Shown: positions 17,651 to 19,859 of the stretch, one piece after another
Layout of the letters: each line of letters begins with the position of its first letter
How positions within the stretch are numbered: the first letter of the stretch is position 1
Assembly: GCA_012521935.1 (NCBI GenBank)
Contig: JAAYLJ010000024.1
Location: 1-34,968, forward strand
Source of the DNA: Campylobacteraceae bacterium
GTDB lineage: Bacteria > Campylobacterota > Campylobacteria > Campylobacterales > Campylobacteraceae
DNA length: 34,968 nt
Direction of reading: 5' to 3'
Made by a program: the position numbers and the translations under genes
The notes under the pieces: model-generated
Seen by the model: only the letters and a program-made list of their open reading frames with translations
Database searches by the model: none
What the model was told of the DNA's origin: nothing

Positions 17651-18850
17651 TTATTTTATTATTTTTGAAACTACCCCTGAACCTACCGTTCGTCCACCTT
17701 CACGAATTGCAAATCTTGTGCCCTCGCTTAGTGCTACTGGAGCAATTAAAGTAACATTAATCTTTAAGTTATCACCTGGCATAACCATCTCAGTTCCTTC
17801 TGGTAGAGTAATTGAGCCAGTAACATCAGTTGTTCTTACATAAAACTGTGGTCTATAGTTATTGAAAAATGGAGTGTGTCTTCCACCCTCTTCTTTTGAT
17901 AAGATATAAACCTCTGCTTCAAATTCAATGTGTGGAGTAATTGAGCCTGGTTTACATAAAACCATTCCTCTTTCAACATCTTCTTTCTTAGTTCCTCTAA
18001 GTAAGATACCGCAGTTATCTCCTGCTTGTCCTTGCTCCATCTCTTTTCTAAACATTTCAACGCCAGTAACTGTAGTTTTTTGAGTATCTCTAATACCTAC
18101 AATTTCTACTTCTTGTCCAACTTTGATTGTACCTTTTTCAATTCTACCTGTAACAACAGTTCCACGGCCTGCAATTGAAAAAACATCCTCAACTGGCATT
18201 AAGAAATCTTTTTCAGTATCTCTTACTGGAGTTGGGATAAAGCTATCTACACTATCCATTAATTCTAAAACTTTTTCTGCCCACTTGCCTAAAGTTCCAG
18301 TTTTAGCTTCTTCTAAAGCTTGCAAAGCTGATCCAGCTACTATTGGAGTATCATCTCCTGGGAAGTCATATTCGCTTAATAGTTCACGAATTTCCATCTC
18401 AACTAACTCTAAAAGCTCCTCATCATCAACCATGTCTGCTTTATTCATAAACACAACAATGTATGGAACTCCAACTTGACGAGATAGCAAGATATGCTCT
18501 CTAGTTTGTGGCATTGGGCCATCCGCAGCAGATACAACTAAAATAGCACCATCCATTTGAGCAGCACCTGTAATCATATTTTTTACATAGTCGGCGTGAC
18601 CTGGGCAGTCAACGTGTGCATAGTGTCTATTATCAGTTTCATACTCAATGTGAGAAGTAGCGATAGTTATACCTCTTTCTCTCTCTTCTGGTGCATTGTC
18701 AATCCCAGCATAATCTTTAAACTCTGCATATCCTTTAGTAGCAAGTACTGCAGAAATTGCAGCAGTAAGAGTAGTTTTACCGTGGTCAACGTGACCGATG
18801 GTACCAATGTTTACGTGTGGCTTGTTTCGTTCAAATTTAGCTTTAGCCAT
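17651..18850 (-). CDS. tuf: Elongation factor Tu
   Basis: [32 protein letters not shown]..., 399 aa. Confidence 0.99.
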
Positions 18851-18926: not shown

Positions 18927-19001
<75 letters not shown>

Positions 19002-19108
19002 ACAATGATTATTTAAATGCAAATATAGCTTGGCTCCAATGGTTTAAAACTAGCAGAGTTTGTAGAATATACGAAGTACACTTACACAGCTCCCAGTTGC
19101 GATACCGT

Positions 19109-19185
19109 TGGAGCGGGAAACGGGGCTCGAACCCGCGACCCTCAGCTTGGAAGGCTGATGCTCTAGCCAACTGAGCTATTCCCGC
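19109..19185 (-). tRNA. tRNA-Gly(TCC), CCA encoded
   Basis: GCGGGAATAGCTCAGTTGGCTAGAGCATCAGCCTTCCAAGCTGAGGGTCGCGGGTTCGAGCCCCGTTTCCCGCTCCA on minus strand. Confidence 0.95.
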
Positions 19186-19197
19186 ACATAGCAATGA

Positions 19198-19283
19198 TGG
19201 TGGTGAGAGAAGGATTCGAACCTTCGAAGGCGAAAGCCAGCAGATATACAGTCTGCCCTCGTTGGCCACTTGAGTATCTCACC
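19198..19283 (-). tRNA. tRNA-Tyr(GTA), CCA encoded, long variable arm
   Basis: GGTGAGATACTCAAGTGGCCAACGAGGGCAGACTGTATATCTGCTGGCTTTCGCCTTCGAAGGTTCGAATCCTTCTCTCACCACCA on minus strand. Confidence 0.95.
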
Positions 19284-19327
19284 TCTAAATTGCTACACCA
19301 TATTTCTGGTCAAACACTGTTACAAAA

Positions 19328-19403
19328 TGGAGCTGGTGAACGGACTTGAACCGCCGACCGGCTGCTTACAAGGCAGCTGCTCTACCAACTGAGCTACACC
19401 AGC
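19328..19403 (-). tRNA. tRNA-Thr(TGT), CCA encoded
   Basis: GCTGGTGTAGCTCAGTTGGTAGAGCAGCTGCCTTGTAAGGCAGCCGGTCGGCGGTTCAAGTCCGTTCACCAGCTCCA on minus strand. Confidence 0.95.
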
Positions 19404-19422
19404 ACCCGTTTTGTGAGGTGAA

Positions 19423-19451
19423 ATTATATCTCAAATGAATGTTCAAGTCAA
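19423..19451 (-). promoter_or_regulatory. Sigma70-type promoter of the tRNA-tuf operon
   Basis: Minus strand TTGACT-17 nt-TATAAT, -10 box about 20 nt upstream of the tRNA-Thr 5' end; very A/T-rich upstream DNA. Confidence 0.8.
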
Positions 19452-19558
19452 GAGATTTTAATTAATTTTTTAATAAAAACATTTTTCTAAAATAAAAGCT
19501 TTAAATTATCTATTTTTATCAATTGTTTTTACTAAAAGTTAAAAATATATATTTTGGC

Positions 19559-19564
19559 TATAAT
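19559..19564 (+). promoter_or_regulatory. -10 box for the small coiled-coil gene
   Basis: TTTTGGCTATAAT upstream of AAGGA and ATG at 19595. Confidence 0.6.
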
Positions 19565-19594
19565 TAACAACTACTTTCTTAAAAAGGATGTGCA

Positions 19595-19834
19595 ATGTTT
19601 TCATGGTTAATTGTCGCTATTTTGATACTCATAGTTATCTATCTTGTCACTAAGTATGAAAAAAGAATAGATCTTTTACAAGAGCTTATTGAGTTAAATC
19701 AACAAGCTATCAAGGCTAACAAAGAAGGAATTGAGCAAAATAGACAAAATATTGACAAAAATGCGCAGGGAGTGCAAAAAAACAAGCAAAACCTTGAGCT
19801 TAGTCAAGCAATGCTAGAAAAGCTCAAGGATTAA
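19595..19834 (+). CDS. Small membrane-anchored coiled-coil protein, Asn-at-d heptads
   Basis: 79 aa: N-terminal TM helix WLIVAILILIVIYLV, then heptads with a=I25,I32,I39,I46,I53,V60,L67,L74 and d=L28,N35,N42,N49,N56,N63,S70,L77; AAGGA RBS and TATAAT promoter. Confidence 0.75.
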   Translation: MFSWLIVAILILIVIYLVTKYEKRIDLLQELIELNQQAIKANKEGIEQNRQNIDKNAQGVQKNKQNLELSQAMLEKLKD

Positions 19835-19859
19835 GCTAGAGGATTATAACCCTCTAGCT
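19834..19859. terminator. Hairpin at the convergent 3' ends of the coiled-coil gene and putA
   Basis: AGCTAGAGG-8 nt-CCTCTAGCT, 9-bp perfect stem; the putA stop lies in the loop and its last sense codons form one arm. Confidence 0.55.

Follow-up and report, generated by a model that had tools for sequence, protein, structure and literature searches.

Locus and features

The analysis concerns a 34,968-nucleotide stretch of DNA from a Campylobacteraceae bacterium, referred to here as the window, and within it a small open reading frame (ORF) flanked by a tRNA cluster on one side and by a convergent putA gene on the other. The features of interest, with their basis in brackets, are as follows.

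17651-18850, tuf, beyond the tRNA cluster (neighbourhood comparison)
18927-19403, minus strand, tRNA-Thr(ggt)-Gly-Tyr-Thr(tgt) cluster, conserved upstream neighbour of the ORF (same order in relatives)
19559-19564, plus strand, TATAAT, a -10-like hexamer 5' of the ORF (sequence)
19581-19588, plus strand, AAAAAGGA, a ribosome-binding-site-like stretch 6 nt before the ATG (sequence)
19595-19834, plus strand, ORF of 79 aa: N-terminal transmembrane (TM) helix, then a coiled coil of eight heptads, of which heptads 2-6 have Asn at d (translation, orthologs, dN/dS)
19595-19651, plus strand, residues 1-19, predicted transmembrane helix, putatively N-out (hydropathy, Kyte-Doolittle mean 2.79; K/R charge bias)
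19652-19666, plus strand, residues 20-24, KYEKR, a conserved basic motif next to the membrane, which anchors the heptad register (alignment)
19667-19831, plus strand, residues 25-79, coiled coil, a = IIIIIVLL, d = LNNNNNSL (translation, register from the KYEKR anchor)
19697, 19718, 19739, 19760 and 19781, plus strand, d-Asn codons of the ORF (sequence)
19834-19859, no strand assigned, hairpin AGCTAGAGG / CCTCTAGCT where the ends of the ORF and putA converge, without a T-run (folding -16.9 kcal/mol, z = -3.4)

The translation agrees with the first-pass annotation of a 79-residue protein in which one TM helix precedes eight heptads, residues 1-19 being the only hydrophobic segment and lying ahead of the coil. 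When the register was rechecked, position a was again found to be always I/V/L (I25, I32, I39, I46, I53, V60, L67, L74) and position d to read L28, N35, N42, N49, N56, N63, S70 and L77, as had been described. AlphaFold2, run on the monomer with ten window/locus sequences as input, predicted a single helix over residues 3-78 with a mean pLDDT of 90.6, and a Foldseek search with this single-helix model gave no match.

The ORF had also been credited with a TATAAT promoter and a ribosome-binding site of its own. Both the hexamer and the AAAAAGGA stretch are present, while the -35 partner was not found, the sigma-70 scan returning no -35/-10 pair on the plus strand for the ORF. Since the -35 box is frequently absent in this bacterial group, TATAAT alone leaves an own promoter plausible. 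The hairpin was not called as an intrinsic terminator; it is possibly a terminator shared by the ORF and putA.

Orthologs and evidence for a genuine gene

Searched in a tblastn-like manner, 153 family genomes gave clear matches to the ORF, with 65-67% identity in the nearest genera. Most members of its own family (f1) carry an ortholog, and orthologs also occur in one sister family (f10). A profile built from 24 orthologs (A1) and used to search the class gave no convincing matches beyond these two families; four loci giving weak profile matches elsewhere in the order were examined and rejected as unrelated. The degenerate-pattern scan of named genomes returned two matches with a Campylobacter-only alignment and none with the window protein alone. 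What emerges is an uncharacterised yet widely conserved small membrane protein of Campylobacter, Sulfurospirillum-like bacteria and their relatives.

Pairs of orthologs gave dN of 0.01-0.38 with high or saturated dS, and a dN so well below dS indicates that the protein is under purifying selection. A small, AT-rich frame (32% GC) adjoining tRNAs might be suspected of being a chance or non-coding ORF, but the reading frame is conserved under that low dN, orthologs occur in two families and indels are quantised by heptads, which together refute this explanation and reduce its probability to almost nothing. By these comparisons the ORF is a real gene; a refuting condition named at first pass, lack of conservation of the ORF in related genomes, is ruled out by orthologs at a syntenic locus in both families.

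Scans against Pfam, NCBIfam and PHROG returned only sub-threshold coil or TM matches, and no Pfam or NCBIfam model covers the protein. YvrJ, Holin_LLH and DUF6249 were rejected, the ORF protein scoring 14-16 bits against gathering cut-offs of 25-33, and so was YebO, which matched only other family members weakly (best E 4e-4).

Asparagine at position d

Asn occupies 68% of d positions in the nearest genera, 69% in f10 and 73% in genus g3, compared with at most 15% at any other heptad position, and two or more consecutive heptads with Asn at d (N@d) occur in 52/54 distinct proteins; retention of Asn at d in orthologs, the second check proposed at first pass, is thereby borne out. With the register read from the juxtamembrane KYEKR alone, no alignment being used, the d-strings are LNNNNNSL in the window and LNNNNNNL, LNNNNNL, LNNNNNNNNL and others elsewhere. 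Measured from the first a, the end motif L.[LI][NS]Q lies 35, 42, 49, 56 or 70 residues away, multiples of 7 in all informative sequences (the value of 7 obtained for L001 and L032 reflects an internal I.LNQ match), and gaps in the ortholog alignment are blocks of seven residues. Length changes by whole heptads, which yield 4-8 Asn layers in the closest groups, with the d-Asn retained, show that selection keeps the I..N repeat while its copy number varies.

The number of N@d layers ranges across the family from 1 to 8, so that the earlier description of a "minimal" coiled coil understated its extent. Of the Asn layers, Campylobacter-type orthologs (g5) retain just the final two or three, in the motif IExNRxLIEKNRSNIE, with Leu/Ile at earlier d positions, from which it follows that a long polar core is not required throughout the family; those of g9 have two Asn layers followed by a Lys-rich tail. 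The e residue after Asn is basic in 64% of sites (R 34%, K 30%).

Five consecutive [ILVM]xxN heptads arose in 0/200,000 shuffles of residues 25-79, the maximum being four, seen three times. With the hydrophobic positions held fixed, placement of five of the seven Asn on the six free d positions had p = 0.0002. At the DNA level, the 3x(ATH..AAY) pattern occurs in the whole 1.69 Mb assembly only inside the ORF, and a 4x I..N pattern was found in 14 of 61 family genomes, with all places among the matches listed at the ORF's locus, some of them also on the reverse strand; the reversed control gave six scattered single matches in the 61 genomes.

As a separate observation, genome G391 carries a second copy (L095, 2738-3076) of 112 aa in which Asn and His alternate at d (MNHNNHNNNHMH), a pattern that recalls the polar core layers with His in adhesin stalks.

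Structural matches and oligomeric state

A coil-only profile (A4) was searched against 177,635 distinct PDB sequences, with the same profile carrying Leu in place of the d-Asn (A5) as control. At E<=0.03, A4 matched four PDB sequences, all of them N@d homotrimers: UspA1 (2qih, E = 3.5e-5), GCN4 with three N@d layers (2wq0-2wq3, E = 0.011) and the SadA stalk (2wpr/2wps, E = 0.012; 2wpq, E = 0.03). The A5 control found none of those four in the PDB and returned generic coiled coils, both designed and natural, whose oligomer states varied. The A4 matches are short and of the coiled-coil kind, and reflect analogy, not homology. The likeness to N@d trimer stalks proposed in the first-pass annotation accordingly has strong sequence support, being found with the Asn and lost without it.

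Trimers with Asn at d and Ile/Val at a hold chloride (PMC6839023; PMC12933892), and N@d helps to define trimer state and register (PMC5940361). Stability falls with each added N@d layer, two or more of which block trimer formation by GCN4 in solution (PMC12933892). In the ORF protein, Ile/Val-type a residues and Asn at d stand in unbroken heptads, and the d-Asn is conserved in homologs. On sequence, the protein matches the N@d class of trimeric coiled coils in every feature that can be judged at that level, and we infer, with good support, that the coil trimerises and binds anions.

Core Asn is generally a specificity device, and in some orthologs it is mixed at d with Leu/Ile. The coil could accordingly be part of a hetero-oligomer, or form a dimer or tetramer, with another membrane or cytoplasmic protein, its d-Asn serving partner specificity and not ion binding. 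At E<=0.03, nevertheless, the only PDB matches of runs of five to eight I..N heptads are homotrimers, no neighbouring gene has matching heptads, and the fourfold pattern, among the matches listed for the 61 genomes, is confined to the ORF locus; such a partnership is rather unlikely, and a homotrimer is preferred.

Topology

Over the 54 orthologs, 12 K/R residues precede the TM helix compared with 207 in the 15 residues after it; 53/54 sequences agree, and the sole exception (L098) is probably a start-site artefact. By the positive-inside rule this bias places the coil in the cytoplasm, and the Lys-rich C-terminal tails of g9 fit the cytoplasmic side. The coil therefore most likely faces the cytoplasm and not the periplasm or the surface (N-out, C-in), which would set the family apart from adhesin stalks, SadB and spanins.

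The same trimeric rod could instead have its C-terminus in the periplasm (N-in, C-out) and act as an envelope spacer in the manner of SadB or spanins, given that those N@d stalks and polar-core membrane-tethered trimers which have been characterised lie outside the cytoplasm (PMC6839023; PMC3953254) and that 21/24 members give weak spanin-like matches (phrog_739, best 5.5e-5). Against this arrangement, which we regard as unlikely, stand the charge bias, the g9 tails and a vertical synteny with no holin/endolysin neighbours and no more than one weak coil match in phage records. An Rz-like spanin was rejected in view of the chromosomal tuf/tRNA/putA synteny, the opposite charge bias and the lack of phage homologs beyond that one weak match. 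The match is to a hypothetical protein of a Vibrio phage (OL762410.1, 18407-18571), with 34.5% identity to the coil at E 3e-3, and probably reflects coiled-coil likeness only.

Gene neighbourhood

The common order in most ortholog groups is tuf - tRNA Thr/Gly/Tyr/Thr - yaaA - ORF, with putA beyond the ORF in close relatives and in some of f10. The yaaA gene (PF03883) was found in 145/153 family genomes, usually directly upstream of the ORF; in close relatives and many others it runs in the same direction at a distance of 33-50 bp. Such proximity could point to the ORF product as a functional partner of YaaA, a peroxide-stress protein, but a PF03883 search of the window and of its whole assembly found no yaaA while the ORF is nevertheless present, genera g2 and g7 carry yaaA with no clear ORF, and alr instead precedes the ORF in C. 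lari-like genomes and one C. jejuni isolate (L081). In the window the place of yaaA (19404-19594) is just a 191-bp gap of 20% GC. With neighbours that vary between yaaA, alr and none, an obligate operon partner is argued against, and the YaaA partnership is mostly rejected; we consider it very improbable. No partner gene is constant among the neighbours of the orthologs.

A CRISPR array lies beside yaaA in genome G015 (L111, 3457-5001), with at least 24 copies of GTTTGCTAATGACAATATTTGTGTTGAAAC at a spacing of about 66 nt.

Proposed mechanism

The reading we favour, at a probability of roughly 60%, is that of an N-out/C-in inner-membrane protein whose cytoplasmic coil is a parallel homotrimer with anion-holding N@d layers, acting as a tether, spacer or scaffold. 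The gene, its conservation, the register, the d-Asn, the heptad-wise change of length and the specific sequence match to N@d trimers are established; we infer the topology, trimeric state, ion binding and metastability of the protein, and the scaffold role of the rod is a guess. Counting against this reading are the short polar core of the g5 orthologs, K/R at e where known N@d motifs usually have Thr, the merely analogous PDB matches and the lack of a constant partner gene.

In such a trimer, Ile layers (a) would alternate with Asn layers (d) in the core, and Ile at a together with Leu at the first and last d would clamp the rod. Each Asn layer would be expected to hold chloride or another small anion, which the basic residue at e would favour further, and the layers would fix trimer state and register at the cost of stability. 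The Asn layers would thus leave the rod marginally stable, so that trimers form mainly because the TM helix concentrates the chains at the membrane and offsets the weak polar core; for SadB, too, the membrane anchor was proposed to raise local concentration and so permit a polar-core trimer (PMC3953254). Rod stability would then depend on cytoplasmic anion or ionic strength, and the rod, at about 1 nm per heptad, could serve a partner as tether, spacer or scaffold.

A bolder and decidedly doubtful version would make the protein an anion-responsive membrane switch in the cytoplasm, in which 4-8 Asn layers are stacked in a tethered rod and each has K/R at e next to it; the rod would assemble or dissociate with cytoplasmic chloride or ionic strength and relay its state to a partner in the membrane.

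The best-known examples of Asn-at-d layers come from surface adhesins and from fusion proteins of viruses, and one view is that N@d in adhesins leaves the chains loose enough for export. If the coil is cytoplasmic, as in the favoured reading, the family would be a natural case of five to eight consecutive N@d layers for which export is not the reason, so that export competence could be separated by experiment from register setting and ion-tuned stability.

Comparison with known systems

The N@d motif is already known; the libraries and literature searched yielded no conserved small protein that crosses the membrane once, apparently faces the cytoplasm and consists almost wholly of this motif. 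A close likeness is to the stalks of trimeric autotransporters (UspA1 2QIH, SadA 2WPQ/2WPR), which share consecutive [I/V]xxNxxx heptads, are the best PDB matches of the profile and have N@d layers described by Hartmann et al. 2009, as cited in PMC6839023. Family homologs L088, L091 and L095 resemble them further in having His at some d positions. Unlike those adhesins, the ORF protein has no outer-membrane beta-barrel anchor, head or signal peptide, and unlike their long fibres it is 79 aa with an N-terminal inner-membrane helix and a putatively cytoplasmic coil. In N@d motifs of adhesins Thr is typical at e, whereas the family has K/R there in 64% of sites. The YadA-type outer-membrane anchor PF03895 was found neither in the protein, which ends in coil, nor in the window's genome, and in place of a Sec signal peptide and a surface-exposed passenger there is an uncleaved-type anchor with N-out/C-in charge bias. 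A trimeric autotransporter adhesin (type Vc) was rejected on the missing PF03895 in protein and genome and the missing signal peptide. Among relatives, genomes G131 and G076 (L103, L104) hold trimeric-autotransporter open frames of 3424 and 4493 aa with a YadA anchor.

Three further systems are comparable by analogy. The SadB / YajI inner-membrane lipoproteins are likewise membrane-tethered trimers with a coil rich in polar core residues (PMC3953254), but SadB is periplasmic and lipid-anchored, with mainly Gln among its core residues and a MATH-like domain at the C-terminus (PMC3953254). The L1ORF1p coiled coil offers an intracellular, metastable trimer with an N@d chloride layer (PMC5940361); unlike the ORF protein it is a eukaryotic RNA-binding protein with a single N@d layer and no membrane helix (PMC5940361). 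Designed GCN4-N@d peptides (2WQ0-2WQ3) are alike in their three consecutive IxxN heptads, with anions in the trimer core, and unlike in being designed soluble peptides whose multi-layer versions are trimeric only in crystals (PMC12933892).
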